Shown here in pieces: positions 12,919 to 59,735 of a DNA stretch of 64,000 nucleotides. The DNA lies in NCBI RefSeq assembly GCF_000058485.1, contig NC_008278.1, positions 1,606,962-1,670,961 on the forward strand, written 5' to 3'. The stretch comes from Frankia alni ACN14a. Lineage in GTDB: Bacteria; Actinomycetota; Actinomycetes; Frankiales; Frankiaceae. Below the pieces are notes generated by a model. The model worked only from the letters and a program-made list of their open reading frames with translations, had not been told where the DNA came from and ran no database searches. The translations under genes were made by a program, and so were the position numbers. Within the stretch, counting starts at the first letter, position 1. Every line of letters starts with the position of its first letter.

Positions 12919-12922
12919 AATC

Positions 12923-12963: not shown

Positions 12964-13003
12964 TGGTCCGGTGCTGAGCGCCAGATGTCGCCCGCCGCTC
13001 CGG

Positions 13004-13192: not shown

Positions 13193-13305
13193 CCAGGAGG
13201 ACCCAACCCAGGCTGAATCCGTGCGGATTATGCCCGCCCGGACCGCAGCCGTGGGTCTGGCTCCGCCGCCGGGCGGTGGTGGAAGGGCTACGTCGAGGGA
13301 GGATC

Positions 13306-38624: not shown

Positions 38625-41600
38625 ATGACCACCGCACCCCGCGTGTCACCCGAGGCCTCCCCGGCCGGCTCCGACGCGCTTGACCCCCTCGACCCCCTCG
38701 ACGCACGCGAGCTTGTCGTCGTGATCACACCGTTCGCCGAGCCCGCCGCCGCTCTCGTCGCCGCCGTCACGCGGGCCGGAGGTCTCGGCGTCCTCGACCT
38801 GGGGCGCTCGGCGCGGGTGGCGCGCGCCGCCCTGCGGGATGCGATCCGCTGGACGCCGGGACACTTCGGGGTGCGGGTCGCCGCCGACTGCCCGGTCGAC
38901 CCGGACGAGCTGCCCGACGCGGTGGATCTCGTGGTGCTCGCCCCCCGACCGGACGGTTCCTCGGCCGGCGATCCCGCCGCGGCGGGCGGCCCGGGAACCG
39001 ACCGGCGCTGGGAGCCGGCGGAGCTGATCCGGCGGGGCCGGCGGGTGTGGGCGGAGGTGACCTCGGTCGCGCAGGCCCGGGGCGCGGTCGCGGCCGGCGC
39101 GGTCGGGCTCGTCGCGCGGGGCAACGAGTCCGGCGGTGTCGTCGGTGACCTGACCACGTTCACCCTGCTGCAGCACCTGCTTGCTGCCGGGCTGCGGGAC
39201 GGCGCGGGCGGCGCGGTGCCCGTCTTCGCCGCCGGGGGGATCGGCCCCGCGACGGCCGCGGCGGCGGTGGCGGGCGGTGCGGCGGGGGTCGTGCTCGACT
39301 CCCAGCTAGCCCTGGTCCGCGAGGTGGAGCTGCCCGAGCAGGTGGCCGCCGCCGTGCGGGCCATGGACGGCAGCGAGACGATCCTGCACGCCGGGCACCG
39401 GCTCTACGTCCGGCCCGATCTGCCCATCGCCGCCCTCGCCGGCCGGCTGGAGCGGCCCGCCGCGGACCTGCGGGACACCGGCGGCGAACTCGCCTCGGAC
39501 GGCGCTGTCACCGCCGCCGCGGTCACTGCTCCCGCGGCCGCCGCGGTCGCGGCCCGGCTTGGCGCCCGGGACCTGGTCGAACAGTTCCTCCCGATCGGCC
39601 AGGACGGCGCCTTCGCCGCCACGCTGGCCGACCGGCACGTCAGCGCCGCCGGGGTGGTGCGGGCGGTGCGCGAGGGCATCCGGGACGGCATCGCGGCCGC
39701 CACCCGCACCCGGCCGCTGGCCGTCGGCGCGCCGTTCGCGGCCGCGCGGGGGCTGCGGCATCCCGTCGCGCAGGGACCGATGACCCGGGTCAGCGACCGG
39801 GCGGCGTTCGCCCGCGCGATCGCCGACGAGGGCGGCCTGCCGTTCCTCGCCCTGGCGCTCATGAGCGGCGAGGACTGCCGCACGCTGCTGACGGAGACCG
39901 CCGAGCTGCTCCAGGACGCGCCGTGGGGGGTGGGCGTGCTCGGTTTCGCCCCGGCGGCCCTGCGCAACGCACAGCTCGCCGCCGTGCGCGACATCCGCCC
40001 GCCGTGCGCGATCGTGGCCGGCGGCCGGCCGGCGCAGGCGGCGCCGCTGGAGGCGGCCGGTATCGACACGTTCCTGCACGTGCCGTCCCCGGGCCTGCTG
40101 CACCGGTTCCTGGCCGACGGGGCCCGAAAGTTCGTCTTCGAGGGGCGGGAGTGCGGCGGCCACGTCGGGCCGCGGGCGAGCTTCCCCCTGTGGGAGGCGC
40201 AGATCGCGGGGCTGCTCGCGTTCGGTGAGAGCGACCAGGCCGGCCCGGACTTCTTCGCCGGCCTGCACCTGCTGTTCGCCGGCGGGGTGCACGACGCCCG
40301 TTCGGCGGCCATGGTCGCCGCCGCGGCGGCCCCGCTCGCCGAACGGGGCGCCGGCATCGGCGTGCTGATGGGCACGGCGTACCTGTTCACCGACGAGGCC
40401 GTCGCCTCCGGCGCGATCCTGCCCGGCTTCCAACAGGCCGCCCTCGACTGCGAGCGCACGGTGCTGCTGGAGACCTCTCCGGGGCACGCCACCCGGTGCG
40501 TCGAGTCCGCCTACGTCCACACCTTCCTCGACCGCCGCCGTGAGCTGCTCGCCGCCGCCACCCCCCGCCAGCAGATGTGGGAGGAGCTGGAGGCGCTCAA
40601 CCTCGGCCGGCTGCGGGTGGCCAGCAAGGGGTTGCTCCGCGACGGCGCCGAGGTCGTCCAGGTCGACCCGGCGGTGCAGGCTCGGGACGGCATGTTCATG
40701 ATCGGCCAGGTGGCGGCCCTGCGCTCGGACCGCACGAGCGTCGCCGCCCTGCACGACGAGGTGACCACGCGGGCCACCGCCGGTCTCGCCGACCGGGCCG
40801 CCGAACTCGGCGTGCCGGCCGGGCAGGAGCCCGCGGTCGGGTCGGCCGACGGCACGCGACGCCCGGCGGGCGGCGAGGGAGACGAGGCGGACATGGCGGG
40901 TGAGGGTACCGGTGCGGGCGTGGATGCGGGTGTGGGTGTGGCGGCTACGGTGGCGACGGTGACGGCGACGGCGACGGCGGGCTCCCGTCCCGCCGGCCAG
41001 CCTCTCGACATCGCGATCGTCGGGATGTCCGCGATCTTCCCCGACGCTCCCGACCTCGCCACGTTCTGGGCGAACGTCGTCGCCGGCAACGACGCGATTC
41101 GCGAGGTGTCCGCCGATCGCTGGGATCCCGAGGTGTACTACTCCGCCGACGCGGTGGTGAAGGACGCCGGGCGCCGCACCCCGTCGAAGTGGGGCGGTTT
41201 CCTCCCGCAGGTCCCGTTCGACGCGCTGGCCTACGGCATCCCGCCGCGGTCGCTGCGCAGCATCGAGACCAGCCAGCTGCTCGCCCTCGAGGTCGCCACC
41301 CGCGCGCTGCGTAGCGCCGGCTACGACACCGGGCAGAAGGCGGCCGGCGAGGGTCGGCCGTTCGACCGCTCCCGCGCCTCGGTCGTCTTCGGCACCGAGG
41401 CCGGCACCGACCTGTCCGGCGCCTACGGGCTGCGCTCGCTGTGGCCGGGCCTGCTCGGGCAGTTGCCCGCCGAGCTCGAGGAGTTCCTGCCGGAGCTGGA
41501 CGAGGACTCCTTCCCCGGCATGCTGGCGAACGTCATCGCCGGGCGGGTGGCCAACCGGCTCGACCTCGGCGGGGTGAACTTCACCGTCGACGCGGCGTGC

Positions 41601-44600
41601 GCCTCGTCGCTGGCCGCGCTCGACGCCGGCTGCAAGGAGCTGCTCGCCGGCAGCTCCGACCTGGTGCTCTGCGGCGGGGTGGACACTCACGCCGGCGCCC
41701 ACGACTTCCTGCTGTTCTCCTCGGTGCACGCGCTGTCGCCGCAGGGTCGCTGCCGCAGCTTCGACTCCGGCGCGGACGGGACCAGCCTGGGCGAGGGCGT
41801 CGCCGTCGTCGTGCTCAAGCGGCTCGCCGACGCCGAGCGCGACGGCGACCGCATCCACGCGGTCATCCGGGCCGTCGCCGGCTCCTCCGACGGCCGCGCG
41901 CTCGGGCTGACCGCGCCACGCAAGGCCGGCCAGGTGCTCTCCCTGGAACGGGCCTACGCGCGGGCCGGCATCTCGCCGAGGGACGTCGGCCTGCTGGAGG
42001 CGCATGCCACCGGTACGGTCGTCGGCGACCGTACCGAGCTCGCCACCCTCACCGAGGTGTTCACCGACCACGGCGCCACCCCCGGCCAGTGCGCGGTCGG
42101 CTCGGTGAAGTCGCAGATCGGGCACACCAAGTGCGCCGCCGGCCTGGCCGGGCTGATCAAGGTGGCGAAGGCGGTCGAGACCGGCGTGCGCCCGCCGACC
42201 CTGCACATCGACACCCCCAACGCCTTCTGGGACGGCGAGACCAGCCCGTTCTACTTCGACGAGACCGCCAAGCCCTGGGCGGCACCCGCCGGCCAGCGCC
42301 ACGCCGGGGTGTCGGCGTTCGGTTTCGGTGGGACCAACTTCCACGTCGTGCTGTCCGCCTATGACGGCGGCCCGGAACCCGCCCACGGCCTGGACCACTG
42401 GCCCGCGGAGCTGTTCGCGGTGCGCGGCGCCGACCGGGCGGCCGCCGGCCGGGCGCTGGATCGCCTCGCCGCCCTGGTCACGACGAACGACGGTGCCGGG
42501 CGGCCGTTCCGCCTGCGGGACCTGGCCCGCACCACCTGCGCGGCCGGTGGCGGCCCGGTGCAGGTCGCGTTCGTCGCCGAGGATCTCGACGGGTTGCCCG
42601 CCGCCATCGAGGCGGCGCGGACGTTCACGGCGAACCCGCGCGCCGGGCTGTTCGTCCGCGACGACGCCGAGCCGGGCGAGACCGCCTTCCTGTTCCCCGG
42701 CCAGGGCAGCCAGCGGCCGGGCATGCTCGCGGATCTGTTCGTCGCCTTCCCCCGGCTGCGTGCCGTGCTCGACCTGGCCCCCCAGTGGGCCGACACGATG
42801 TTCCCGCCGGCCGCGTTCACCCGGGAGCAGAAGGCCGAGCAGGCGGCGGCGATCACCGACACGCGGGCGGCCCAGCCGACGCTCGGCCTCGCCGGCCTGG
42901 CCGTGCACGATCTGCTCACCGGGCTCGGTGTCCGTCCGGACCACGTTGGCGGGCACTCCTACGGTGAACTGGTCGCCCTGTGCGCCGCCGGCGCCCTCGA
43001 CCGAGCCGACCTCGTCGGCCTGAGCGAGGCGCGGGCCGCCGCGATCCTCGCCGCGGCGGGGGACGACCCGGGCACGATGGCCGCCGTCCAGGCGTCCGTC
43101 GAACGCGTGCGCGAGGCGCTCGACGGCGTCGCGGCCGACGCCGTCGTCGCGAACCACAACGCCCCGCGGCAGAGCGTGATCTCCGGGCCGACCGCCGCCG
43201 TGGCCGAGGCCGTGGCCGCCCTCGGCCGCGCCGGCCTCACCGCCCGGCCGATCCCGGTGGCCTGCGCGTTCCACAGCCCGGTCGTGGCCGCGGCCGCCGG
43301 GGCGCTCGCCGACCGCCTCGACGCCCTCGACGTCGCCGCGCCGGCGCTGCCGGTGTGGTCCAACACGACCGCCCAGCCGTATCCGACGGCACCGGAGCAG
43401 GTGCGGGCGACGCTCGCCGGCCAGGTGGCGGCACCGGTGCGGTTCGTCGAGCAGATCGAGGCGATGTACGCGGCCGGCGTGCGGACCTTCGTCGAAGCCG
43501 GCCCCGGTCGGGTGCTCTCGCAGCTCGTCGGCAAGATCCTCGCCGGGCGGCCGCACCGGGTCGTGGCCACCGACGTCGCGGGGGAGCCGGGGCTGCGCCG
43601 GTTGCTGCTCGCGCTCGCCGAGCTCGCCGCGGCCGGCGTCGGTGTCGACCCGGCGCCCCTGTTCACCGGTCGCGACGCCCGGGTGGTGAGCGACGCGGAG
43701 GTGCCGCGCCGGCCCGGCTGGCTGATCGACGGGGCCTACGTGCGCACCGCCGACGGCCGCTTCCTGCCGGGCGCCCTGCGACCGCCGACCCGACTGGCCC
43801 TCGCCGCCGGCCCAGAGGCGGCCGCCGCGGTGGCCTCCGCGGGGCCCGGCCTCGCGGCGCCGTCGGAGATCCCTGCGGCAGGCTCCCAGGCGGCAGCGTC
43901 CCCCGCGGTGGCGTCCCCCGCGACGGTGGCACGGACCGCTGCGGCGGTGTCCGAAACGGCGGTGTCCGAAACGGCGGTGTCCGAAACGGCGGCGTCCGGA
44001 GCGGCGGTGGCCGGCGCGGCCCGTCCGGCTCCGGCGGCGCGGGCAGCTCCTGGCGGGGAGCGTCCGGAGATCGCGGGCGTGCGCGGATTCGTCCCGCAGG
44101 ACCCGGCGCCACCGTTCGTTCCCGTTGACCCGACAGACGATGCGGCGGTCCTCGCCGCCGCACTGCCCGAGCTTGGAGGTGGCGGCCCGGTGGACGCCGT
44201 GGTGTTGGAGTTCCTGCGGACCACCCGAGAGCTGGTCGCGGCGCAGCGCGACGTGGTGCTGGGCTACCTGGGCTACGACCCGACCGGTGCCGGCCGCCAG
44301 GCGTCGCGTGACGGCGTCGACGGCGTCGACCGCTTCGTGGCCACCTCCGCGGTCCCCCGCCAGGCCCAGCCGGAGCAGGCGCGAAGCACCGCCGCGCCGG
44401 TGACTCCCGCGGTGCCCAGGCCGGCCTCCGCGCCGGACGCGGCGGACGCGGCGCTGCCCCCGGTCGGCGCCCCCGCGGCAGGCGGCGTCCCCGCGGCAGG
44501 CGGCGTCCCCGCGGCGTCGGCGGCGCGGTCGGCGGTGGTGGAGCGGTCGGCGGTGTCGGATGCGGTGGTGGGGGTGATCGGGGAGCAGACGGGTTATCCG

Positions 44601-47084
44601 GTGGAGATGTTGGAGCCGGATCTGGATCTGGAGGCTGATCTGTCGATCGACTCGATCAAGCGGACGGAGATCCTGGGGGAGTTGGCGCAGCGGTTGGGGC
44701 TGGTGGAGGCGGGTTCGGGGGAGTTGGACGAGGAGGTCGTCGAGGAGCTGGCGGCGATCAAGACCGTCCGCGGCATCGTCGACTGGGTGATGGACCGCTT
44801 CGCCGCCGCCGGCGGCTCCGCGGCTCCGGCGGCGTCGTCCGGCCCGGCCACGTCGAACGGAACCCACGTCGGTGCGGTGACGGGCTGGTCCGCCTCGGCG
44901 GCCTCGAGCGCCGCCCATGCCGGGGCAGGCGGTGGTGCCACGGCATCCACGGTCCGGGTCGGTTCGAACGGCACGCACACCTCGGCCGCTGTGGCGCCGG
45001 TGGTCCGCTCCGCGCCGGTGGTCCGCTCCGCGCCGGTGGTCCACTCCGCGCCGGTGGTCCACTCCGCGCCGCCGGCGCGGTCGGCGGTGGTGGAGCGGTC
45101 GGCGGTGTCGGATGCGGTGGTGGGGGTGATCGGGGAGCAGACGGGTTATCCGGTGGAGATGTTGGAGCCGGATCTGGATCTTGAGGCTGATCTGTCGATC
45201 GACTCGATCAAGCGGACGGAGATCCTGGGGGAGTTGGCGCAGCGGTTGGGGCTGGTGGAGGCGGGCTCGGGGGAGTTGGACGAGGAGGTCGTCGAGGAGC
45301 TGGCGGCGATCAAGACCGTCCGCGGCATCGTCGACTGGATCGTCGGTTCGACCACCGGCGGGACCGAGCCCGGCGCCTCCACCACCGACGAGTCCGTCGG
45401 ATCTCCCGAGTCCGTCGGATCTCCCGAGTCCGTCGGGTCTTCTGCGTCCGAGGGATCTCGCGTGTCCGCCGGGAGATCCCCGGGCGCCGGGTCCGACGGG
45501 GTCGGCGACCCGCTCGGGGCGATGGCGCTGCGGCGCTTCGTCGTCGAGCCGGAGATCCTGCCCGCGCCGGCCGGCACGGCGCCGGCCGACCTCGCCGGCT
45601 CCCGCTTCCTCCTGGTGGAGGGTGGTCTCGGGGTCGGCCTGGCGCTCGCCACCCGGTTGGAGCAGGCAGGCGCCGAGGCACGGATTCTCGCCGCCGCCGA
45701 CGCCGGCCTCGTCGACCAGATCCGGGCCGGTGCCGGCGCCGACGGTCTCGTCTGGATCGCGTCGGCCGACCCTGGCGCGGACGAGCACGCGATCCTGCCC
45801 GGCGCGTTCCCCGCCCTACGGGCCGCGGCCCTGGGCGGCAGCCGGCGGGTGCTCGTCGTCACCGGCAACGGCGGTCGGTTCGGCCGGTCCCGCGCCGCCG
45901 CCCCCGGCGCGACGGCCAACCCGAGCGCGGTCGACGCCCTGGAGTTCGCCCGTCGGGCCGACGCCGGGGAGTTCGTCGTCCGTCCGACGCCGGGTGCGGG
46001 GCTCGCCGGCCTCGTCCGCACGATCGCCCGGGAGGTCCCCGGCCTGGCGCTGCGTCTGGTCGACGTCGAGCCGAAGGACGAGCCCCGCCGGATCGCGGAC
46101 AGCCTGCTCGTCGAGCTGCTCACCCCGGGCGGGCCGCTGGTCGTGGGTTACCGGGACGGGGCGCGCGCCACCCTGCGGGTGCGGCCCGCGCCTGCCGATG
46201 GGGCCGGCGAGCTGCCCGTCGGGCTGGGCCCGTCCTCCGTCGTGCTGCTCACCGGCGGCGCCCGGGGCATCACCGCGGCGGTCGCCGTCGAGCTCGCCCG
46301 GCGCAGCGGGTGCGCCGTCGAGCTGGTCGGGCGCACCGCGGCGCCCACGGGGCCGGAGGACCCCGCCACCGCGGGCGCGGCCGACGCCCCGGCGCTGCGC
46401 CGCGCGCTGATCGAGACCGGCGTGCGCCGCCCGGCCGAGATCGAGGCCCGGGTCTCCCGGCTGCTCGCCGAGCGGGAGGTGCGGGCGACGTTGGCGACCC
46501 TGCAAAGCCTCGCGTCCTCGGTGCGTTACCACGCGGTGGACGTGCGCGACGGCGCGGCCGTCGCCGCCGTGGTGGCCGACGTCTACGCCCGCCACGGTCG
46601 CCTCGACGGGCTGGTGCACGGCGCGGGCGTCCTCGCCGACCGGCTGTTGCGCGACAAGACGCCCGAGTCGTTCGACCGGGTCTACCGGACGAAGGTCGAC
46701 GGCGCCCGGGCCCTGCTCGCCGCGGTGCGCGACGACGTCGGCTTCGTCGCCCTGTTCGGCAGCGTGGCGGGCGTGTTCGGCAACCGCGGCCAGGCCGACT
46801 ACGCCGCCGCGAACGACGCCCTCGACACGCTCGCGGGGGCGGCGGCCGGCCGCTTCGCCGGCCGGGTCGTCAGCGTCGACTGGGGCCCCTGGGCGTCGCC
46901 GGCCACCGCCGCGGGTGGCGGGATGGTCTCCGCGGAGCTCGCCCGCGAGTACGCCCGCCGCGGCATCGGCCTGATCGACCCGGCCGACGGCGTCGCCGCG
47001 CTGCTGCGCGAGCTGGCCGGCCCGCCCGACGGACCGGCGCAGGTCGTCTACATGTGCGCCGAGGCGGAGGCGTTCGATGCGTGA
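38625..47084 (+). CDS. PUFA-synthase-like megasynthase: PfaD-like reductase region, KS, AT, two ACPs, KR
   Basis: A 2819-aa multidomain synthase. Residues about 25-290 and 340-720 resemble nitronate monooxygenase/PfaD flavin enoyl reductase barrels (VFAAGGIGPATAAAAVAGGA, VAQGPMTRVSD, FEGRECGGHVGPRASFPLWE). Then come KS from about 794 (catalytic Cys992 in AACASS, His1127 in EAHATGT, His1167 in IGHTKCAAG), AT with Ser1445 in GHSYGE, and two ACPs with phosphopantetheine sites Ser2010 and Ser2194 in SIDSIKR. KR is last (TGGARGI near 2543, Tyr2726 in GQADYAAAN). KS-AT-ACP2-KR is the PfaA order of polyunsaturated fatty acid and related lipid synthases; carrying the PfaD-type part at the N-terminus is unusual. 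All catalytic residues are present. Linkers hold short peptide repeats. AGGAGG precedes the ATG. The next gene overlaps by eight bases. Confidence 0.92.
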   Translation: MTTAPRVSPEASPAGSDALDPLDPLDARELVVVITPFAEPAAALVAAVTRAGGLGVLDLGRSARVARAALRDAIRWTPGHFGVRVAADCPVDPDELPDAVDLVVLAPRPDGSSAGDPAAAGGPGTDRRWEPAELIRRGRRVWAEVTSVAQARGAVAAGAVGLVARGNESGGVVGDLTTFTLLQHLLAAGLRDGAGGAVPVFAAGGIGPATAAAAVAGGAAGVVLDSQLALVREVELPEQVAAAVRAMDGSETILHAGHRLYVRPDLPIAALAGRLERPAADLRDTGGELASDGAVTAAAVTAPAAAAVAARLGARDLVEQFLPIGQDGAFAATLADRHVSAAGVVRAVREGIRDGIAAATRTRPLAVGAPFAAARGLRHPVAQGPMTRVSDRAAFARAIADEGGLPFLALALMSGEDCRTLLTETAELLQDAPWGVGVLGFAPAALRNAQLAAVRDIRPPCAIVAGGRPAQAAPLEAAGIDTFLHVPSPGLLHRFLADGARKFVFEGRECGGHVGPRASFPLWEAQIAGLLAFGESDQAGPDFFAGLHLLFAGGVHDARSAAMVAAAAAPLAERGAGIGVLMGTAYLFTDEAVASGAILPGFQQAALDCERTVLLETSPGHATRCVESAYVHTFLDRRRELLAAATPRQQMWEELEALNLGRLRVASKGLLRDGAEVVQVDPAVQARDGMFMIGQVAALRSDRTSVAALHDEVTTRATAGLADRAAELGVPAGQEPAVGSADGTRRPAGGEGDEADMAGEGTGAGVDAGVGVAATVATVTATATAGSRPAGQPLDIAIVGMSAIFPDAPDLATFWANVVAGNDAIREVSADRWDPEVYYSADAVVKDAGRRTPSKWGGFLPQVPFDALAYGIPPRSLRSIETSQLLALEVATRALRSAGYDTGQKAAGEGRPFDRSRASVVFGTEAGTDLSGAYGLRSLWPGLLGQLPAELEEFLPELDEDSFPGMLANVIAGRVANRLDLGGVNFTVDAACASSLAALDAGCKELLAGSSDLVLCGGVDTHAGAHDFLLFSSVHALSPQGRCRSFDSGADGTSLGEGVAVVVLKRLADAERDGDRIHAVIRAVAGSSDGRALGLTAPRKAGQVLSLERAYARAGISPRDVGLLEAHATGTVVGDRTELATLTEVFTDHGATPGQCAVGSVKSQIGHTKCAAGLAGLIKVAKAVETGVRPPTLHIDTPNAFWDGETSPFYFDETAKPWAAPAGQRHAGVSAFGFGGTNFHVVLSAYDGGPEPAHGLDHWPAELFAVRGADRAAAGRALDRLAALVTTNDGAGRPFRLRDLARTTCAAGGGPVQVAFVAEDLDGLPAAIEAARTFTANPRAGLFVRDDAEPGETAFLFPGQGSQRPGMLADLFVAFPRLRAVLDLAPQWADTMFPPAAFTREQKAEQAAAITDTRAAQPTLGLAGLAVHDLLTGLGVRPDHVGGHSYGELVALCAAGALDRADLVGLSEARAAAILAAAGDDPGTMAAVQASVERVREALDGVAADAVVANHNAPRQSVISGPTAAVAEAVAALGRAGLTARPIPVACAFHSPVVAAAAGALADRLDALDVAAPALPVWSNTTAQPYPTAPEQVRATLAGQVAAPVRFVEQIEAMYAAGVRTFVEAGPGRVLSQLVGKILAGRPHRVVATDVAGEPGLRRLLLALAELAAAGVGVDPAPLFTGRDARVVSDAEVPRRPGWLIDGAYVRTADGRFLPGALRPPTRLALAAGPEAAAAVASAGPGLAAPSEIPAAGSQAAASPAVASPATVARTAAAVSETAVSETAVSETAASGAAVAGAARPAPAARAAPGGERPEIAGVRGFVPQDPAPPFVPVDPTDDAAVLAAALPELGGGGPVDAVVLEFLRTTRELVAAQRDVVLGYLGYDPTGAGRQASRDGVDGVDRFVATSAVPRQAQPEQARSTAAPVTPAVPRPASAPDAADAALPPVGAPAAGGVPAAGGVPAASAARSAVVERSAVSDAVVGVIGEQTGYPVEMLEPDLDLEADLSIDSIKRTEILGELAQRLGLVEAGSGELDEEVVEELAAIKTVRGIVDWVMDRFAAAGGSAAPAASSGPATSNGTHVGAVTGWSASAASSAAHAGAGGGATASTVRVGSNGTHTSAAVAPVVRSAPVVRSAPVVHSAPVVHSAPPARSAVVERSAVSDAVVGVIGEQTGYPVEMLEPDLDLEADLSIDSIKRTEILGELAQRLGLVEAGSGELDEEVVEELAAIKTVRGIVDWIVGSTTGGTEPGASTTDESVGSPESVGSPESVGSSASEGSRVSAGRSPGAGSDGVGDPLGAMALRRFVVEPEILPAPAGTAPADLAGSRFLLVEGGLGVGLALATRLEQAGAEARILAAADAGLVDQIRAGAGADGLVWIASADPGADEHAILPGAFPALRAAALGGSRRVLVVTGNGGRFGRSRAAAPGATANPSAVDALEFARRADAGEFVVRPTPGAGLAGLVRTIAREVPGLALRLVDVEPKDEPRRIADSLLVELLTPGGPLVVGYRDGARATLRVRPAPADGAGELPVGLGPSSVVLLTGGARGITAAVAVELARRSGCAVELVGRTAAPTGPEDPATAGAADAPALRRALIETGVRRPAEIEARVSRLLAEREVRATLATLQSLASSVRYHAVDVRDGAAVAAVVADVYARHGRLDGLVHGAGVLADRLLRDKTPESFDRVYRTKVDGARALLAAVRDDVGFVALFGSVAGVFGNRGQADYAAANDALDTLAGAAAGRFAGRVVSVDWGPWASPATAAGGGMVSAELAREYARRGIGLIDPADGVAALLRELAGPPDGPAQVVYMCAEAEAFDA
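44521..45338 (+). repeat. Near-identical tandem ACP-coding duplication
   Basis: 266-bp copies at 44521-44786 and 45073-45338, 552 bp apart and differing at only about two bases. They use G- and T-ending codons (TTG, GGG, GTT) in a gene that otherwise prefers C-ending codons, so identity extends to silent sites. The intervening 286 bp encode a Ser/Ala/Val linker. Confidence 0.93.
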
Positions 47085-50000: not shown

Positions 50001-52515
50001 CCCCGTTCTGGTTCCGACTCCGGCCGCGGCCTCGCAAGCGGCCCCGACGCCCGCCGCCGGGAGGCCCATCGAGCTGCCGCGGCGCCGGGGCACCCCCGTG
50101 CGGCTCACCCTCGGCACGCCGTTGGTGCGTCTTGGACCCGCGGCCGCGGACCTCCTCGCACCGGATCTCCATGCCCGGGATCTCCATGCCCGGGATCTCC
50201 TCGTCCCGGATCTCCCTGCCCCGGATCTCCCTGGATCCGCGGGCCCGGCCCTCCGCGGACCGGTGGGCGCCGATCTCCCCGGCCCGGACCTTCCGAGTCC
50301 GGACCACGCGGATCCGGCTCTGCCTGTTCTGCGCGCCGCCGGTAGCCATCCGGTTCTCGACGAGCTGCGGGCGGCGCTTGCCGACGCCGGTGCGGTGATG
50401 TCCGCGGTCGTCGACCGGTGGGCGCTCGGCCCCACCGCCCCGCCGGGCTCGCCGCCACGACGCCGTGGTGGGCCCGCGGCCGGCGCAGTGGGCACCGTGC
50501 CCGCAGCCGGTGGGTCCGGCGGCGTGCCGGCGCCCCGGGGAGCCGGCACAACCGCCTCCCGGGGACCCGGCGCGGCCGCACCCGCCCGTCGTGCCGAGCC
50601 CGCCGGCCGTGCCGAGCCCGCCGGCCGTGCCGAGCTCGCCGGCCGCGCCGCGGCCGGAGCCGGCGCGGCTGCCGCGGTCGAGTCCGGTGGTGGTTCGGCA
50701 CCCGGGCCGCGGACGGTCCGTCGCCGGTTGTCGCTGGCATCGATGCCGCACATCATCGACCACTGCTTCTACCGGCAGCCGCCGGGTTGGCGCGACCTGT
50801 CCGACCTGTTCCCGGTCGTGCCGATGACCGAGGTACTCGAACTCATGATCGCGCACGCCGCGGCGCTGATGCCGGGCCGGGTGCCGATCGGCATGCGGGA
50901 CGTCCGGGCGCTGCGTTGGCTCGCGATCGAGCCCGCCGTGGAGGTGGCGGTCACCCTCACCCCGGCGGGGGCGGACGCGGTCCGGGTGACCATCGAGGGG
51001 TACGCCCGTGGGACGGTCGTGTTCGCCGACGGCTATCCGCCGTCCCCGCGGACGACCGCGGCCACCGCGGACCTGCCGGTGGGCCCGACCGGGCCGATCC
51101 TCCCCGGCGAGCAGCCCTCCCGCCACCAGGGCAGCGACCTCTACGGCGGTCACTTCCTCTTCCACGGCCCCGGATACCAGGGCATCCACCGCATCGAGGG
51201 GATCGGCGCGACCGGGATCCGCGGACGGCTGCGGGTGCCGGCCGCCTCCGGTGCGCTGCTGGACAACGCCGGGCAGCTCTTCGGCTACTGGGCGATGGAG
51301 AACCTGCCCGAGGATTCGCTGCTGCTCCCGCAGTCGGTGTCCGACCTGCGCTTCTACGGCCCGGCGCCGGTGGCGGGCGACCTGGTCGACTGCGTCGTGC
51401 GGATCCGGCAGGTCGCCGACCGCACGGTGACCGCCGACCTCGAACTGCGTCGCCTGGACGGGTCGCTGTGGGCGGTGGTGTCGGCCTGGACCGATCGGCG
51501 GTTCGCCAACGACGACGTGCTCTGGGCGATGGTCCGCGCCCCGGAGCTGCACACCGTGGCCCAGCCCTCGGGCGAGGGCTGGGTGGTCGCGCTCGACCGC
51601 TGGTCCGATTCGGCCTCACGCGAGCTGATCGTGCGTCACTATGCCGACTCCGCCGACCGGGCCCGGCTCGCGGGACTCAACCCGCGGGCGGCGCGCGGCT
51701 GGCTGCTGGGGCGCATCGCCGTCCAGGACGCCGTGCGGCGCTGGCTGTGGGCGCGCGGCGCGGGGCCCGTCTGGGGGATCGAGGTCCGGATCGAGCACGA
51801 CGAGCTGGGCGCCCCCCTGGTCGGCGCCCTGCCGGCGCGGCCGGGCATCCCGGCCGGCGACCCCCCGCGGGTGTCGCTGGCCCACAAACCGGAACTGGCG
51901 GTGGCGCTGGTGTCCGCGGACGGGCCGGTCGGCATCGACATCGAGCAGATCGTCGCCCGGGCGCCCGGCGTCGAGCTGGCGGCCCTCGCCCCCGTCGAAC
52001 GCGACCTGCTCGACCGGGTCGCCGGCGACGATCCGGGACGCCGGGCGCTGTGGTTCACCCGGCTGTGGGCGGCGAAGGAGGCGGCGGCGAAGGCCGAGGG
52101 CACCGGGCTCGCGGGCCGGCCGCGCCAGTTCGTCGTCGACGGTCCGCACCGGCCCGGACGGGCCTGGGCGGCGACCGACTGGGCCGGGCAGGCTCCGCCC
52201 GAACTGGTCCGGGTCACCGTCTACGGGGAGGGTCCCGACGGGCCGCTCCCGCGGGGCTCCCGGTGGGTGGCATTGCGTACGGTGGACGCCTCCGGCCGGA
52301 TCCGGCCGGACGGCGGCGAACCCGGGGCCCCCGATCCGGACCCGGGCGGCGTCGGCGGCCGGGCCGTGGCGAGGGACGTGCGTTCCGCCACCGTCATCGG
52401 TCAGGATGCTGCGCGTGACGGCGCCCCCGCCCGGCGGGCCGGTGCCGCGACCTATGTCGTCGCCTGGACCTCACCCGAGGTCGAGGCGAACGGCCTTCCC
52501 AGCGAGAAGGAGTAG
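47077..52515 (+). CDS. Second lipid synthase: KS, AT, dehydratase, phosphopantetheinyl transferase
   Basis: An 1812-aa protein. The KS at residues 10-500 has Cys236 (AACASS), His374 (EAHGTA) and His420 (IGHAM), all catalytic. The AT region is from about 650, with Ser719 in GHSIGEW. A Pro/Leu-rich linker includes the LHARDLHARDLLVPDLPAPD run. A double-hotdog dehydratase at about 1220-1520 has His1229 in IIDHCFY and Asp1396 in LLDNAGQ. A C-terminal 4'-phosphopantetheinyl transferase at 1550-1770 has VSLAH, GIDIE (Asp1621) and WAAKEAAAK (Lys1667, Glu1668). It parallels PfaC/PfaE functions in one chain and can activate the ACPs of its own pathway. The ATG overlaps the first synthase by eight bases. 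The AT sequence is divergent (FLFCGLEDKFSPRIDDV), so its acyl substrate is unclear. Confidence 0.9.
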   Translation: MRDPGGGSGAPPIAVVGMSALFPGAGDLDTFWRNIVGGVDAIQALPPDRFDVDDYFPPERPPAAPGTRRDAGTEAGPGPIGAADGFYCRRGGFVDEFATFDPTAFGIVPNAVDWAEPDQLLALRLAAEAITDAGGPDGLGDAERVGVVLGRGGYVGSGVARLEQRVRTSRQLVTTLREVLPDLPADAVERVREAFVAQLGPARPEASIGLVPNLAASRIANRLDLRGPAYTVDAACASSLIAVEMAMRDLGSGRTDTMIVGGAHLVHEPSFWSVFSLLRALSPSEAIRPFDRRADGILIGEGVGMLVLRRLADARRDGDRIYAVLRGAGTSSDGRSASLMAPAADGQTLAVRRAWADAGLDPTAPGAIGLVEAHGTATPTGDAVELATLGRIFGTAANAGTGGAGRADIGIGSVKSMIGHAMPAAGAAGLIKTALALHHRVLPPTLHCDEPHAAFAGSRFAPVRAATDWDTPAGGGPRRAGVNAFGFGGINAHLVVEEAPPTAPATPARTFPAATPAATPAVTSVAAPAGSPDATAPVATVTPVATAASVAAARVVDPDAEAVLLLAGSSPAQLLAQLDVDDAQLLDRDDAANPPAGGPWRLALVAPNPRRLALARTVVGRGNPWRGRNDLWFTPAGLLDPARADGTPVGRTAFLFCGLEDKFSPRIDDVCAHFGLARPALDDTGMLGRHGVASVEVGRILDEALRRLGIVPDLVGGHSIGEWNAMISGGLITGESTDAFIAGFDPAVLEVPGVVFGALGCGAARAAEVIADLGEVVVSHDNCPHQSIICGREASVRTALERLRRDGVLGQVLPFRSGFHSPFLKPYLDRLRTNLAGVTLVEATVPIWSATTVAPYPRDHDAVRALALRHLVEPVRFRELVRRLHDTGVRAFVQVGVGSVAGFVDNTLPGHDHIALVTNSPKRSGLDQLRRVAAALWVEGAAPRLDLLPCRTRPEPPATPATAPAGEPTLGPVQAPVLVPTPAAASQAAPTPAAGRPIELPRRRGTPVRLTLGTPLVRLGPAAADLLAPDLHARDLHARDLLVPDLPAPDLPGSAGPALRGPVGADLPGPDLPSPDHADPALPVLRAAGSHPVLDELRAALADAGAVMSAVVDRWALGPTAPPGSPPRRRGGPAAGAVGTVPAAGGSGGVPAPRGAGTTASRGPGAAAPARRAEPAGRAEPAGRAELAGRAAAGAGAAAAVESGGGSAPGPRTVRRRLSLASMPHIIDHCFYRQPPGWRDLSDLFPVVPMTEVLELMIAHAAALMPGRVPIGMRDVRALRWLAIEPAVEVAVTLTPAGADAVRVTIEGYARGTVVFADGYPPSPRTTAATADLPVGPTGPILPGEQPSRHQGSDLYGGHFLFHGPGYQGIHRIEGIGATGIRGRLRVPAASGALLDNAGQLFGYWAMENLPEDSLLLPQSVSDLRFYGPAPVAGDLVDCVVRIRQVADRTVTADLELRRLDGSLWAVVSAWTDRRFANDDVLWAMVRAPELHTVAQPSGEGWVVALDRWSDSASRELIVRHYADSADRARLAGLNPRAARGWLLGRIAVQDAVRRWLWARGAGPVWGIEVRIEHDELGAPLVGALPARPGIPAGDPPRVSLAHKPELAVALVSADGPVGIDIEQIVARAPGVELAALAPVERDLLDRVAGDDPGRRALWFTRLWAAKEAAAKAEGTGLAGRPRQFVVDGPHRPGRAWAATDWAGQAPPELVRVTVYGEGPDGPLPRGSRWVALRTVDASGRIRPDGGEPGAPDPDPGGVGGRAVARDVRSATVIGQDAARDGAPARRAGAATYVVAWTSPEVEANGLPSEKE

Positions 52516-52520
52516 CGATC

Positions 52521-52865
52521 ATGTCTGTTCAGGGGACGGCGGGACCGGTCGGCGCGGGCCGGGCGCAGACCGAGACGCGGGTGCTCGGCGAGGTCACCGA
52601 GGACCTGCGCGAGGTCATCGGCGAGGAGTACGTGATCGACATGGACATCACCATGGAGACCACGTTCAGCCAGGACCTGGAGCTGGAGAGCATCGAGTTC
52701 GTGGCGCTCGCCGACCGGCTGCGGGAGCGCTACGGCGAGGCCGTCGACTTCGTCGGCTTCCTCGCCAGGATGGACGTCGACCAGGTGATCAACATGCGGG
52801 TCGGTGAGGTCGTCCGGTTCATCGTCGACAGCCTGCCGGCGCCCGCGACCGCCGGATCCGCCTGA
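52521..52865 (+). CDS. Stand-alone acyl carrier protein
   Basis: A 114-aa protein. VLGEVTEDLREVIGEEYVID and TTFSQDLELESIEFVALADR show the ACP four-helix pattern with the phosphopantetheine Ser57 in LESIEF. The motif is E-S-I rather than the common D-S-L. It differs clearly from the tandem ACPs in the first synthase, so it probably has a separate role, such as starter loading or chain transfer to the hydrolase. The ribosome-binding site GAAGGAG sits in the end of the upstream gene, five bases away. Confidence 0.9.
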   Translation: MSVQGTAGPVGAGRAQTETRVLGEVTEDLREVIGEEYVIDMDITMETTFSQDLELESIEFVALADRLRERYGEAVDFVGFLARMDVDQVINMRVGEVVRFIVDSLPAPATAGSA

Positions 52866-52893
52866 CGGCCGCTCGGCGCATCCGGTCCCGACC

Positions 52894-52947
52894 GACCGGC
52901 ATCCCGCATACGACTGGCATCCCGCATACGACTGGCATCCCACATCG
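52894..52947. repeat. 18-bp tandem repeat, three units
   Basis: GACTGGCATCCCGCATAC with minor changes, three times, filling most of the 99-bp gap between the ACP and hydrolase genes, directly before the latter's ribosome-binding site. Confidence 0.9.
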
Positions 52948-52964
52948 ACAAGGAGGCAAGGACC

Positions 52965-53867
52965 GTGGCTGAGGTCATCGCGAACGGCGTCCGCCTGCAC
53001 GTGCAGCGGCTCGAACCCCGCGGGGGCGCGTCCGCGGACTCGCCGATCGTCGTCATGGTGCACGGCATGGTGATGGACAACATCTCCAGCTTCTACTTCT
53101 CGCTGGGCACCTGCCTGGCCGACGCCGGCTGCGACGTCATCTGCTACGACCTGCGCGGTCACGGCCGCAGCGAGCGCACCCCCGGCGGCTACCGCCTCGC
53201 CGACTCGATGGCCGACCTTGCCGGGCTGCTCGACGTCCTCGGGGTGGACCGCCCGGTGCACGTCGTCGGCAACAGCTACGGCGCGACGCTGGCCCTGGCG
53301 TTCGGGTTGGAGTTCACCGCCCGCGTCGCGAGCCTGACGCTCATCGAGCCGCCGTTCCTCATCGAGGGCCTGGGCGAGGAGATGGCCCGGTCGCTGAGCC
53401 AGATCCTCGTCGCGATGACCGACGACGAGGTCGAGGAGTGGCTCGACAACGGCGCCGGCCGGGCGATCACCAAGGCCACCCGGGCCGCCCAGCGGCTGCT
53501 GTCCGACACGACGATCGCCACCGACATGCTGGCGACGCCGGCGTTCTCCGCCGAGGCGCTCGCCGCGCTGCCGATTCCGGTGCTCGCCGTCTACGGGGAG
53601 AACTCCGACATCATCGGGCAGGCCGCCGGGCTCGCCGCCCTCGTCCCCGAGTGCACCCTGATCGTGCTGGAGCACCACACCCACATGGTGCTGCGCGAGG
53701 CCACCGGCTACCTGCGCAGCCTGCTGGCCTGGTGGCTGTTCGACCGGCGCACGCCCCCGCCGCCCTACGTCCGTGACACCGAACGGCGCTTCGCCACGCC
53801 CGAGTGGGTGACACAGATGGTGCCGCCGCCCGACCTGAACGCCGGGCGCCGCCCGGCGGTGGGCTGA
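52965..53867 (+). CDS. Alpha/beta hydrolase, possible chain-release thioesterase
   Basis: A 300-aa alpha/beta hydrolase. VMVHGMVMDN is the oxyanion-hole strand, YDLRGHGRSE the next conserved turn, and VVGNSYGATLAL the nucleophile elbow with Ser104. Late in the chain PVLAVYGENSDIIG and HHTHMVLREA supply the acid and the catalytic His. No signal peptide is seen. In the middle of the lipid operon it most likely hydrolyses or transfers the finished acyl chain from the carrier protein; a plain esterase cannot be excluded. The GTG start follows AAGGAGGCAAGGACC. Confidence 0.9.
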   Translation: MAEVIANGVRLHVQRLEPRGGASADSPIVVMVHGMVMDNISSFYFSLGTCLADAGCDVICYDLRGHGRSERTPGGYRLADSMADLAGLLDVLGVDRPVHVVGNSYGATLALAFGLEFTARVASLTLIEPPFLIEGLGEEMARSLSQILVAMTDDEVEEWLDNGAGRAITKATRAAQRLLSDTTIATDMLATPAFSAEALAALPIPVLAVYGENSDIIGQAAGLAALVPECTLIVLEHHTHMVLREATGYLRSLLAWWLFDRRTPPPPYVRDTERRFATPEWVTQMVPPPDLNAGRRPAVG

Positions 53868-53877
53868 GGAGCCGGCC

Positions 53878-55068
53878 GTGAGCCGCGTCCTGTTCGTCGT
53901 GCCGCCGCTGACCGGGCACGTGAACCCGGCCGTGGGGATCGCCGGAGAGCTCGCCGACCGCGGTCACGCCGTCGCCGTCGCCGGTCACGCGGGCGTGATC
54001 GGCGGGCTGGTCCCGCCGGGGCTGCCGCTGCTGGCGCTGCCGGAGACGCTCAGCGAGGCCGACCGCGCCGACATCGTCACCCGCTCCCGGGCGCTGCGCG
54101 GCCCGGCGTCGCTGAAGTTCCTGTGGGAGGACTTCCTGCTGCCGCTGGCCGCGGCGATGGAGCCGGCCGTGGACGCGGCCATCGACGCGTTCCGCCCGGA
54201 TGTGCTGGTCATCGACCAGCAGGCGGTCGGCGCGGCGCTGGTCGCCCGCCGTCGGCGGCTGCACTGGGCCACCCTCGCCACGACGTCCGCCGAGTTCGAC
54301 GACCCGTACGGGGTGCTGGCCGGGCTCGGCCAGTGGGTCGCCGACCTGCTGCAGGAGTTTCAGCTCGCCCACGGCGTGCCCGTCGGCGAGGCCTCCGCCG
54401 TCGACCTGCGGTTCTCCGACGAGCTCACCCTCGTCGCGTCCGTGCGGGAGCTGCTGCGTACCCCCGAGATGCCCCGCCACGTCGCCTTCGTCGGCAGCCT
54501 GGTCGGCCGGCGGGCGCAGACCTCCTCCTTCCCCTGGGAGTGGCTCGACCCGGACCGTGACGCGGTGCTCGTCTCCCTCGGCACGGTGACCCGGGAAGCC
54601 GGCGGGCGGTTCCTGCGGGCCGCCGCGGAGGGCCTGCTGGGCCTGGCGGGACGGGCACAGGCCGTCATCGTCGCCCCGCCCGGCCTCGTCGACGACCTGG
54701 CCGCCGCCGCCCCCGACGACCTGCTCGTCGCCCCGTTCGTGCCGCAGGTCGAGCTGATGCCGAAGCTGGCCGCGGTGGTCTGCCACGCCGGCAACAACAC
54801 GGTCTGCGAGGCGCTGTCCCGCGGAGTTCCGCTGGTCGTCGCCCCGGTCCGCGACGACCAACCGATCATCGGCGAGCAGGTCGTGCGCAGCGGCGCGGGC
54901 TTACGGATCAAGTTCGGCCGGGCCGGACCGGCGGCCGTGCGCGGCGCGGTGACGTCTCTGCTCGACGAGCCCGGCCACCGTCAGGCCGCCGGGCGGCTGC
55001 GCGACGCCTTCGCCGCGGCGGGAGGGGTTGCGGCCGCCGCCGACCGGCTTGAGAAACTCGCCGCATGA
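53878..55068 (+). CDS. UGT/MGT-family glycosyltransferase
   Basis: A 396-aa GT-B glycosyltransferase of family 1. The N-terminal acceptor domain begins RVLFVVPPLTGHVNPAVGIA with the catalytic-type His in TGHVNP. The C-terminal donor domain has VLVSLGTVTREAGG, then FVPQVELMPKLAAVVCHAGN with the HAGNNTVCEAL donor-binding motif and APVRDDQPIIGEQV. This class adds NDP-activated sugars to lipids, polyketides and macrolides, so the product of this operon is probably glycosylated. The GTG start has GAGGAG just before it and lies 10 bp after the hydrolase stop. Confidence 0.93.
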   Translation: MSRVLFVVPPLTGHVNPAVGIAGELADRGHAVAVAGHAGVIGGLVPPGLPLLALPETLSEADRADIVTRSRALRGPASLKFLWEDFLLPLAAAMEPAVDAAIDAFRPDVLVIDQQAVGAALVARRRRLHWATLATTSAEFDDPYGVLAGLGQWVADLLQEFQLAHGVPVGEASAVDLRFSDELTLVASVRELLRTPEMPRHVAFVGSLVGRRAQTSSFPWEWLDPDRDAVLVSLGTVTREAGGRFLRAAAEGLLGLAGRAQAVIVAPPGLVDDLAAAAPDDLLVAPFVPQVELMPKLAAVVCHAGNNTVCEALSRGVPLVVAPVRDDQPIIGEQVVRSGAGLRIKFGRAGPAAVRGAVTSLLDEPGHRQAAGRLRDAFAAAGGVAAAADRLEKLAA

Positions 55069-55120
55069 CGTTTCGCCGGCGTGGTGGCGCCGCGGTCGGG
55101 CCGGTACGGGGCTGACCGCC

Positions 55121-56983
55121 GTGCTCGACTGGCTGCCGGTCCTGGTCTGCGTCGGCCTGCTCATCAACGGGGTGCGGCTGCGTGGCCGGCTGCGCCGCCT
55201 GGAGACCGTGCCCGCCTCCGGCCGGCCGGTGGACCCGTCGCACGAGTTCCTCGTCGCCGACGGGGTGCAGCTGACCGACAGCGGGCGGCGCGCGGCCAGC
55301 TACCACGCCAGCCGGGACAAACTCGACGTCCTCGATCTCGTGCCCGCGGACCTCACCGTCGAACGTGCCCTCGACCTGGCCCGCATGGTCGACACCCGCA
55401 CCTACCGCACCGACCGGTGCGTGCCCGGCCGCGGCGCCTTCCAGGCGCTGCTGGTCCGCTCGGAGATCCTCGACCGGGCCGGCATCACCCGCCGCGACGG
55501 CTTCGACCCGGTGGAACTCGTCGACATCACCGAACGGCTGAAGACCTTCGCGTCCGGGTCGACCGACCTCGCCGTCCTCCCGGGGCTGCGCGCGGCCCGG
55601 GAGGACGCCGCGATGCGCGTGCGGGTCCAGCAGCGGGCCTATCGGTTCACCCGGCGCAACCAGCTCTTCCCGTTCGTGCCGCAGCTTGCCACCGCCATCG
55701 GCGTGCACGTCAACCGGCCGTGGGGACTCGCGGCCACGGCGCTGTTCTGGTTCCAGCCGTTCTTCGTCTGCGCCGGCCGGGTGCCGCTGTCCCCCCGCGA
55801 CCTGATCCGCTCCCCGATCGTGCGCATCCTCAGCGGGCTGCTGTTCGTCATCGACTCGGTGCGCGCCGGTCGCGCGCAGGCCGCGCGGGCCGCCGAGGCC
55901 AAGGCCGCCGGGCTGCCCGCCGATCCGGTCAAGCACGCGGCGAAGCAGCGTACGGCGGCCAGCCGGGCCTCCTACGGCCGCGACGTCCGCGCCGGCCTGG
56001 CCCGGTTCCTGCGCCGCGCCCGGGCGGACTGCCCGTGGTGCGGTTCGGTGGAGCTGGCCACCCGGCTCGACTCGCCCGACATGTTCCTGCGCAAACCCGG
56101 CCGGTTCCGCCTCGACGGCTGCCGGCGCTGCGGGCACGTGTTCCTCAACCCGGGGCTGAGTCCCGCCGGCCGCGAGTTCTACGACCGGGACCGGTACGAC
56201 GGCCTGCGCACCGGCATCGCCGAGCAGGCCCTGGCGGTGATCGCCCGCGACCGCCGCGGGCAGGCCGCCGCCGTGCGCCCGTTCACCGTCCCGCGCACCT
56301 GGCTGGACGTCGGCTCCCGCTACGGCCACTTCCCCAACGCGGCCCGCGAGGTGTGGCCGGCGACGGTGTTCGACGGGGTCGACACGTTCGCCGGGTTGGA
56401 CGAGGGCCTGCGGCGCGGCTGGCTCGACCATGCCCACCACGGCCGGCTGCCCGACGTCGTCGAGGCGGTCGCCGGCCGCTACGACGTCATCAGCATGTTC
56501 GGCTACCTGGAACGCGCCGACGACCCGTCCGCGGAGCTCGACGCCGTCGCCAAGGCGTTACCGCCCGGCGGCCACATGCTGTGCGAGCTGGCGAACCCCG
56601 AGTGCCACCAGGCCCGCTGGCTCGGCCGGTTCTGGGCCGGCTGGGCGGTGCCGGAGCGGGCGCATCTCATCCCCGTCGACAACCTGCTCGCGGCGCTGGA
56701 GGACCGGGGGCTGCGGCCCGTGCTGGTGCGGTTCGCCGCCAGCCGTGGCCTCGGCGACCTCTCCGCCGCCCTGCTGCTCGTCGTCGCCGCCATCGCGCCG
56801 CGTCCCATGCCCTGGCTGCGCCAGGCCGCCGGGCCCGCCCACCTGGTGGCCTGGGGCGCCATGATGGCGGTGGTCAGCCCCCTGCTGATCACCGCCCGGC
56901 TCCTCGACCGGCTCGCCCGCCGTTACGTCCACGGCGCCGGCTTCGCGGGCACCTACCTGGTGATCGCCCGCAAGGAGGTCTGA
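55121..56983 (+). CDS. Membrane-linked zinc-ribbon methyltransferase fusion
   Basis: About 620 aa. There is an N-terminal hydrophobic segment (LPVLVCVGLLINGVRL), then an unassigned 250-residue domain (HASRDKLDVLDLVPADLTVE, GRGAFQALLVRSEILDRAGI) with a hydrophobic part near LAATALFWFQPFFVCAG. A four-Cys zinc ribbon follows (CPWCG near 303, CRRCG near 336), then a class I SAM-dependent methyltransferase (WLDVGSRYGHFPNAAREVWP, YDVISMFGYLERADDPSAEL, GGHMLCELANPE) and two C-terminal hydrophobic segments. Zinc ribbon plus methyltransferase resembles sugar C-methyltransferases. The N-terminal domain is not recognised. GTG at 55121 is chosen because upstream sequence is not protein-like; the frame opens at 55028. 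As the last operon gene, it may methylate the lipid's sugar at the membrane. Confidence 0.8.
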   Translation: MLDWLPVLVCVGLLINGVRLRGRLRRLETVPASGRPVDPSHEFLVADGVQLTDSGRRAASYHASRDKLDVLDLVPADLTVERALDLARMVDTRTYRTDRCVPGRGAFQALLVRSEILDRAGITRRDGFDPVELVDITERLKTFASGSTDLAVLPGLRAAREDAAMRVRVQQRAYRFTRRNQLFPFVPQLATAIGVHVNRPWGLAATALFWFQPFFVCAGRVPLSPRDLIRSPIVRILSGLLFVIDSVRAGRAQAARAAEAKAAGLPADPVKHAAKQRTAASRASYGRDVRAGLARFLRRARADCPWCGSVELATRLDSPDMFLRKPGRFRLDGCRRCGHVFLNPGLSPAGREFYDRDRYDGLRTGIAEQALAVIARDRRGQAAAVRPFTVPRTWLDVGSRYGHFPNAAREVWPATVFDGVDTFAGLDEGLRRGWLDHAHHGRLPDVVEAVAGRYDVISMFGYLERADDPSAELDAVAKALPPGGHMLCELANPECHQARWLGRFWAGWAVPERAHLIPVDNLLAALEDRGLRPVLVRFAASRGLGDLSAALLLVVAAIAPRPMPWLRQAAGPAHLVAWGAMMAVVSPLLITARLLDRLARRYVHGAGFAGTYLVIARKEV

Positions 56984-59730: not shown

Positions 59731-59735
59731 CGCGG

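Follow-up and report, generated by a model that had tools for sequence, protein, structure and literature searches.

Frankia alni ACN14a is named in the passages on Type M secondary lipid synthases of PMC3098273 (Shulse and Allen 2011), which describe the type as conserved in all three Frankia genomes finished by 2011 and its product as uncharacterised. The genes lie in a stretch of 64,000 nucleotides, the window of this analysis (positions 1606962–1670961 of the 7497934-base contig), where six adjacent genes on the + strand occupy 38625–56983 (genome 1645586–1663944). The first two encode the synthase as two fused proteins, a reductase-ketosynthase (KS)-acyltransferase (AT)-acyl carrier protein (ACP)-ketoreductase (KR) and a KS-AT-dehydratase (DH)-4'-phosphopantetheinyl transferase (PPTase). 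This is the layout worded for Renibacterium in a June 2026 paper (PMC13291983), as a fused pfaDA and a pfaBC-PPTase still called uncharacterised. As the ACN14a synthase was catalogued as Type M in 2011, the system itself is already known. No paper naming a Type M product was found in literature searches, for which coverage of subscription papers was mostly lacking.

Other described systems share parts of this design. Type P, the phenolic-lipid fatty acid synthase (ars), has a chain of C22-26 according to the passages seen in PMC3098273; those of PMC4824345 state that ArsA makes C23-C25 fatty acids, that ArsD is a phosphopantetheinyl transferase, and that the ars lipids are structural in Azotobacter cysts. 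The polyunsaturated fatty acid (PUFA) synthases (Pfa, Types A, B and L) have the same KS-AT-ACPn-KR core as Type M. The heterocyst glycolipid synthases (Hgl, Type F) resemble it in the logic of a long acyl chain plus a glycosyltransferase (GT), and they release the chain reductively by a thioester reductase. Type F lacks DH/I in the account of PMC3098273, whereas Type M has a dehydratase.

Sequence comparison puts the chance at about even (a probability of roughly 0.5) that Type M makes a very-long-chain hydroxy-acyl glycolipid, placed in the envelopes of filamentous actinomycetes or exported, as a general product and not a device for nitrogen fixation. For a synthase type in print without a product since 2011, the tailoring cassette makes the predicted product concrete: a glycoside with a long chain or, in Micromonosporaceae, a sulfate. 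The cassette, the switch between GT and sulfotransferase, the tandem of a live and a dead reductase, the kinship to Type P and the independence from nif are not in the Type M passages seen in PMC3098273, Figure 1 of which may show some of them.

The locus and its two synthases

The six genes are as follows.

38625–47084, + strand: synthase 1, 2819 aa, reductase barrel-reductase barrel-KS-AT-ACP-ACP-KR
47077–52515, + strand: synthase 2, 1812 aa, KS-AT-DH-PPTase, with an 8-base overlap with synthase 1
52521–52865, + strand: free-standing ACP (PP-binding Pfam match), after a 5-bp gap
52965–53867, + strand: alpha/beta hydrolase (Pfam match), after a 99-bp gap; candidate thioesterase or transacylase for release
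53878–55068, + strand: family-1 (macrolide-type) GT (Pfam match), after a 10-bp gap
55121–56983, + strand: zinc-ribbon SAM methyltransferase (MT; Methyltransf_23), 620 aa, after a 52-bp gap

The original prediction, made from the letters of the window, had described six tightly joined one-strand genes with no gap above about 100 bp; gene ends and order agree with it (successive junctions of −8, 5, 99, 10 and 52 bp). Comparison with homologues suggests that the MT starts at 55121 rather than at an upstream TTG at 55028. Against three Frankia loci, dN/dS was 0.09–0.37 for each of the six genes; for synthase 1, 1980 and 2052 codons were comparable in two of these loci (L006 and L008), where the called open reading frames (ORFs) are shorter.

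The domains of the two synthases are listed below; the KS, AT, ACP, KR, DH and PPTase motifs are all present.

38706–39434, + strand: reductase barrel 1 of synthase 1, NMO 41.0 bits, apparently catalytically dead
39741–40784, + strand: reductase barrel 2, NMO 45.4 bits, FabK-like, QGPM and ECGGH motifs kept
41007–42209, + strand: ketosynthase 1 (KS1), Pfam, Cys and both His motifs present
42687–43541, + strand: acyltransferase 1 (AT1), Pfam, GHSYGE motif
44574–44801, + strand: ACP repeat 1, DSIK
45105–45347, + strand: ACP repeat 2, Pfam, DSIK
46239–46895, + strand: ketoreductase, Pfam, SVAG...Y motif
47110–48420, + strand: ketosynthase 2 (KS2) of synthase 2, Pfam and motifs, intact, of a lineage separate from KS1
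49153–49764, + strand: acyltransferase 2 (AT2), Pfam, GHSIGEW motif
50713–51483, + strand: dehydratase, polyketide-type double hot-dog, PS-DH 35.3 bits (cut-off 23.7)
51925–52143, + strand: 4'-phosphopantetheinyl transferase, the ACP activator, PF01648 42.9 bits

Pfam identified a KS, an AT, two ACPs and a KR in synthase 1, and a KS, an AT and a PPTase in synthase 2, the last where the original prediction had placed it, at the C-terminus. The dehydratase and the reductase were not listed in the whole-protein scan at E 0.001 and emerged when segments were scanned apart; scanned in this way, both barrels of synthase 1 exceed the NMO cut-off of 28 bits. The two ACP repeats (window 44500–45400) have a verbatim identical run of 88 residues, which suggests a recent duplication or gene conversion.

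The reductase is a tandem of FabK-like barrels and not a PfaD, as judged by family models and motifs. Neither barrel matches the PfaD family model (TIGR02814) at E 1, a model that gave 624.3 and 630.6 bits (cut-off 449.25) with two other ACN14a proteins as positive controls; the closest solved structures by sequence are FabK reductases. A PfaD moved to the N-terminus, as had been proposed for this locus, is thus not what the protein carries. What holds of that proposal is the fused layout, with its novelty limited by Type M in PMC3098273 and by the pfaDA and pfaBC-PPTase wording of PMC13291983. The two barrels align directly to each other (E 5e-8, for that single pair) and differ in their conserved residues. 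Of 43 rows, all have the flavin Met in barrel 2 and 41 the motif III His there; in barrel 1, one row has the motif III His and none the motif I Met. With both residues lost, barrel 1 is apparently catalytically dead. The thraustochytrid PUFA synthase in the part of PMC13311796 that was available likewise has two TIM-barrel reductase domains per synthase, as an ERb/ERc heterodimer; there, the barrels are on two subunits and each has the catalytic His, whereas in Frankia they are in one chain and the first has lost the His. The live-dead tandem is a single-chain counterpart of such PUFA synthase reductase dimers.

A Pfa-type enzyme was also expected from the domain order, which had been read as the PfaA and PfaC pattern, and here too the details differ. 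PfaA is the best NCBIfam model of synthase 1, at 925.4 bits, under the cut-off of 1010.1; another synthase of ACN14a clears it at 1042. Synthase 1 has two ACPs, while Type A enzymes have 4–6 in tandem. No second KS-like domain (chain-length factor) was found in synthase 2 by Pfam, and no FabA-type dehydratase in the two synthases, the FabA type having shown in another ACN14a locus as a control. The top structure match for the KS, 7zma, was set aside as a close relative: its score came partly from its two KS domains, it gave no closer lead, and a search turned up no paper on it.

Kinship with the Type P synthases

By these comparisons the nearest relative of a CHARACTERISED type is Type P. A search of plasmid proteins with residues 351–1250 of synthase 1 (barrel 2 and KS1) gave 39 records, in four of which one place covered at least 80% of the query: two from Streptomyces, one from Methylosinus and one from Beijerinckia indica, a listed Type P host (PMC3098273). 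The B. indica cluster encodes a 2674-aa protein of the same domain order, two type III polyketide synthases (PKS), a 629-aa DH-PPTase protein and a glycosyltransferase. Synthase 1 is 49% identical to the 2674-aa protein in barrel 2, 44% in KS-AT, 35% in KR and 31% in barrel 1 (E 3e-19), and residues 1213–1685 of synthase 2 are 30% identical to the 629-aa protein over 515 columns. The Methylosinus values are similar: 51% in barrel 2, 46% in KS-AT, 34% in barrel 1 (E 2e-23) and 30% in DH-PPTase. For the Methylosinus synthase the start seems to be annotated too far downstream, since the open frame above it contains barrel 1.

Both Type P proteins have tandem NMO-like barrels followed by KS-AT-ACPs-KR, and both have lost the motif III His of barrel 1 (to Gln in Beijerinckia and Arg in Methylosinus). 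Its loss in Type M and in both Type P proteins makes the dead barrel look like an old shared feature. The DH-PPTase protein of Type P also has its counterpart in Type M, where it is fused to KS-AT, and by this match synthase 2 resembles an ArsD-like DH-PPTase to which a KS-AT has been joined. The types are opposite in one respect: Type P clusters include type III PKS genes, and their DH-PPTase has no KS-AT in front of it; Type M has the KS-AT, with no type III PKS among the six genes or the scanned neighbours. The Beijerinckia glycosyltransferase is GT4-like, of another family than the Type M GT. The Beijerinckia and Methylosinus plasmid clusters (L122 and L123) each have a glycosyltransferase and an ABC/periplasmic-adaptor export set nearby, which suggests glycosylated, exported phenolic lipids.

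A tree built from 37 KS domains places KS1 of Type M with Type P at moderate support (92/79), in a clade that holds one long-branch row. Eight other KS form a separate clade (100/99), five of them with a PfaD relative in the examined DNA, and KS2 is a separate lineage (98/97).

Tailoring genes, distribution and the predicted lipid

Conservation of the tailoring genes was counted in outside loci. A scan of genome contigs confirmed 165 relatives, of which the best 80 were kept, giving 79 loci. ORFs were called in 61 loci (55 of the 79 at 20 kb or more, the window and five further regions), 60 of which have the synthase. All counts rest on an ORF caller that uses codon usage and had the synthase and tailoring matches themselves as its training set, since one based on GC by codon position alone chose antisense ORFs within the synthases. 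Outside loci were considered informative if they had both synthases and at least 5.5 kb downstream. This left 47, after the window and a second ACN14a locus (L117) had been excluded and 11 loci with a single or broken synthase ORF or a short flank had been dropped (L019, L027, L040, L045, L061, L063, L065, L073, L119, L120 and L121).

All 47 loci have the ACP, 45 the hydrolase, 23 the MT and two an ABC exporter. The GT is present in 42 and a sulfotransferase in the other five; no locus has both, and every locus has one or the other. The idea of one conserved 'secondary lipid' pathway unit therefore stands. Loss of the GT and MT from related loci had been named as a sign against it; the GT is kept, or exchanged for a sulfotransferase, and the MT is less constant. 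With one of the two in 47 of 47 loci, a decorated lipid is well supported, and sugar and sulfate in one slot point to a hydroxyl as acceptor. The GT form occurs in Streptomyces, Actinomadura, Amycolatopsis, Allokutzneria, Crossiella, Kitasatospora and Frankia, among other genera. All five sulfotransferase loci (L038, L041, L042, L050 and L075) are from Micromonosporaceae; the sulfotransferase was identified by Pfam on two of the five, and the PAPS-type GRCGST motif is in all five. In these loci the sulfotransferase is followed by a secreted-looking protein of ca. 600 aa and then a PHB-depolymerase-like esterase (L041:23079–27056 and the four others); the ca. 600-aa protein of L041, the one on which Pfam was run, has no Pfam match.

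The free ACP carries ESI instead of the ordinary DSL, with the Glu in 55 of 55 homologues and the Ser in 54. Among 56 hydrolase homologues the nucleophile is Ser in 50 and Cys in five, and the His is in all 56. Donor-site residues of the GT are kept in 45–51 of 51 homologues; its best NCBIfam model is a macrolide GT subfamily, at 131.1 bits and under the cut-off of 260. The four zinc-binding Cys of the MT are kept in 31 of 31 homologues, and its N-terminal region of ca. 300 aa has no Pfam match, nor has the MT a match in PHROGs. A stand-alone zinc-ribbon MT paralogue of 668 aa (L118:7737–9743) has a similarly long N-terminal region. ACN14a also has a second Type M cluster (L117:1649–19352; genome 3143500–3163400, − strand) with both synthases, ACP, hydrolase and GT, and with an ABC exporter where the MT would be.

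The distribution of the locus was compared with that of nitrogen fixation in 35 Frankiaceae genomes. The reductase region is in 32 (plus one with a KS piece near a contig start), the GT in 32, the MT in 30 and NifH in 25. The GT occurs in 24 of the 25 nifH-bearing genomes and in 8 of the 10 nifH-less ones. The two nifH-less genomes that lack it measure 3.0 Mb and, at 63% completeness, 3.2 Mb; Frankiaceae genomes of about 5 Mb have the GT or reductase region. The nifH-bearing exception (G025, 100% complete) has neither GT nor MT, and has the first synthase with no second in the next 4.3 kb. In ACN14a itself nifH begins at 7420649, 3 bases from the position 7420646 printed for FRAAL6813 in PMC10252897. 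In a sample of the class, the reductase region was found in 42 of 296 genomes, 25 of them Frankiaceae.

A pathway can be proposed from these parts. The PPTase would arm the ACPs. A long and mostly saturated chain would be built by KS1-AT1 together with the KR, barrel 2 (with the dead barrel 1 holding it) and the dehydratase that synthase 2 contributes; by analogy with the ars enzymes it would fall within C22-C26, length and saturation both being taken from Type P. KS2-AT2 would add the last one or few units, incompletely reduced, and leave a hydroxyl. This role of KS2 as terminal extender is suggested because KS2-AT2 sits where Type P has its type III PKS, and the one leftover hydroxyl because GT and sulfotransferase replace each other. 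The chain would then pass to the free ACP and be released or transferred by the hydrolase; the GT would glycosylate the hydroxyl, which Micromonosporaceae would sulfate instead, and the MT would methylate the sugar or the lipid after glycosylation. A fuller version of this proposal is tentative and the odds are against it as a whole: that Type M is a fatty acid synthase related to ars, its second KS-AT taking the place of the type III PKS, with a socket for the head group that holds mostly a GT and in Micromonosporaceae a sulfotransferase, so that its products are widespread, undescribed very-long-chain hydroxy-acyl glycolipids and sulfolipids, and with a live-dead tandem reductase common to Type P.

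Several points weigh against the hydroxy-acyl glycolipid. B. indica itself was not found to make phenolic lipids, according to PMC3098273, and the clade that unites KS1 with Type P has the moderate support and the long branch given above. What KS2 does is a guess, and it may simply be another condensing domain of the usual kind within one and the same cycle. As the 42 GT loci are related, they do not count as independent events, and since the five with a sulfotransferase belong to a single family, the swap may have happened just once. The triad acid of the hydrolase is not pinned down, Asp being present in 28 of 56 homologues at the tested column. A macrolide-type GT would suit a membrane lipid and a specialised metabolite equally, and secondary metabolism also fits both the patchy occurrence in the class and a plasmid of Streptomyces sp. 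NBC_01243 on which the annotated six-gene order is complete.

These last points lead to the strongest rival, a secreted, glycosylated specialised metabolite (a signal or an antibiotic) for which the GT and transporters serve activity or self-protection. It is unlikely, though it deserves more weight than the other rivals: besides the macrolide GT model, the Streptomyces plasmid copy and the patchiness, ABC or MFS transporters adjoin some clusters. Against it stand the near-universal occurrence of the locus in Frankiaceae, with genomes of ca. 5 Mb included and two of ca. 3 Mb excepted, a core of five or six genes that recurs across many genera, and the kinship with the ars enzymes, which supply structural lipids of Azotobacter cysts (PMC4824345). 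Quite improbable, and at one level with each other, are two further products. One is a PUFA or polyene from a true Pfa-type synthase, which the best NCBIfam model and the KS-AT-ACPn-KR order of synthase 1 would suit, and against which stand the score below the PfaA cut-off, the two ACPs, and the lack of a PfaD match and of any FabA-type dehydratase or chain-length factor seen. The other is a phenolic-lipid analogue made without a type III PKS, in which the beta-keto terminus left by KS2-AT2 is cyclised by the hydrolase-like protein (to a pyrone, tetronate or resorcinol-like head) and then glycosylated or sulfated. KS2-AT2 in place of the Type P type III PKS and one KR for two KS are in its favour, and the GT/sulfotransferase swap suits an enol or phenol acceptor as well; Pfam found no cyclase domain among the six proteins, and a nucleophile and His kept in nearly all hydrolase homologues fit plain release.

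The original prediction had compared the product with heterocyst glycolipids and allowed for a vesicle lipid. A heterocyst-glycolipid-like lipid of the nitrogen-fixing vesicle of Frankia is, by a little, the least probable of the rivals. The conservation of Type M in all three 2011 Frankia genomes (PMC3098273), the glycosylated long-chain logic and the GT in nearly all nifH-bearing Frankiaceae agree with it. The six genes, however, have no thioester reductase domain by Pfam, and the locus does not follow nifH: it is near-universal in Frankiaceae with or without that gene, which makes a lipid specific to nitrogen fixation unlikely, and the cluster also occurs in Streptomyces, Actinomadura, Amycolatopsis and others. 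The published material points the same way. PMC10252897 lists 108 genes that clusters 1–3 share and cluster 4 lacks, none of them between 1300029 and 1792140, so that the Type M locus (1645586–1663944) is not on the list. The main text of the nodule proteome paper PMC8951365 has no string FRAAL15xx, the range expected for the locus by interpolation, and reports most secondary-metabolite proteins as undetected or underabundant. The vesicle envelope is described as hopanoid in the part of PMC5745019 that was available. Another locus of ACN14a fits a heterocyst-like lipid better.

Other synthase loci and neighbouring genes

This other locus is 131 kb downstream, at genome 1794750–1805209 (L126:6751–17210). 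In a row it encodes a thioester reductase, a PfaD and a synthase of the PfaA type, the last with a score over the PfaA cut-off. By position its PfaD is FRAAL1675, which is on the 108-gene list of PMC10252897; called ORFs at 1792140, 1796231, 3471734, 3473914 and 3475554 are 0–6 bases from the printed starts of FRAAL1671, 1675, 3194, 3195 and 3196. Its KS groups (100/98) with a KS from an Azospirillum lipoferum plasmid, itself next to a PfaD relative. Ten regions from nine other genomes and one more region of G031, chosen mainly by KS matches, were sampled for the trio. It was found at 54–76% identity in three genomes, all nifH-bearing (G006, G017 and G018). Sampled regions of nifH-bearing G002 and G034 and of nifH-less G014, G027 and G032 have the other synthase type, and two regions have neither. 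As these regions are a sample and not a survey, the link of the trio to nif rests on the printed list. By sequence, the thioester reductase-PfaD-PfaA locus is the better candidate for a heterocyst-glycolipid-like lipid, as a lead and not a claim of function, and the nif comparison turns the search for such lipids of the Frankia vesicle towards this locus at 1.79–1.81 Mb.

A second PfaD-bearing synthase is at genome 3464292–3477383 (L128:8293–19558 and L129:1555–3384), together with a dehydratase of the FabA type and a gene for an acetyl-CoA carboxylase. FRAAL3194-3196 of this locus are on the symbiosis-conserved list of PMC10252897, and relatives of the synthase are still present in three sampled nifH-less genomes.

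Two possible regulators lie upstream of the Type M genes in the window and outside the enzymatic unit.

30061–34173, + strand: LuxR-type regulator of the large ATPase (MalT-like) kind, GerE domain
35675–36568, + strand: LuxR-type regulator, GerE domain

With the window counted, the family of the first is present in 8 Frankiaceae loci and that of the second in 7.

Further upstream, a phytase-like esterase gene is followed by one for an RCC1-repeat protein (11595–14610). At 23897–26668, a 923-aa ORF on the minus strand of ca. 82% G+C has tandem repeats (a 21-bp unit at 25267–25399); it has no Pfam match at E 1e-5 and may not be a gene. Downstream of the MT, on the − strand at 57240–60488, a TenA-like protein, an NMT1/THI5-like binding protein, a permease and an ATPase make up a set for uptake of a thiamine precursor. 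A ThiC gene, identified by Pfam, is just beyond the Type M cluster in another locus (L018), and the same family is present in L016 and L059.

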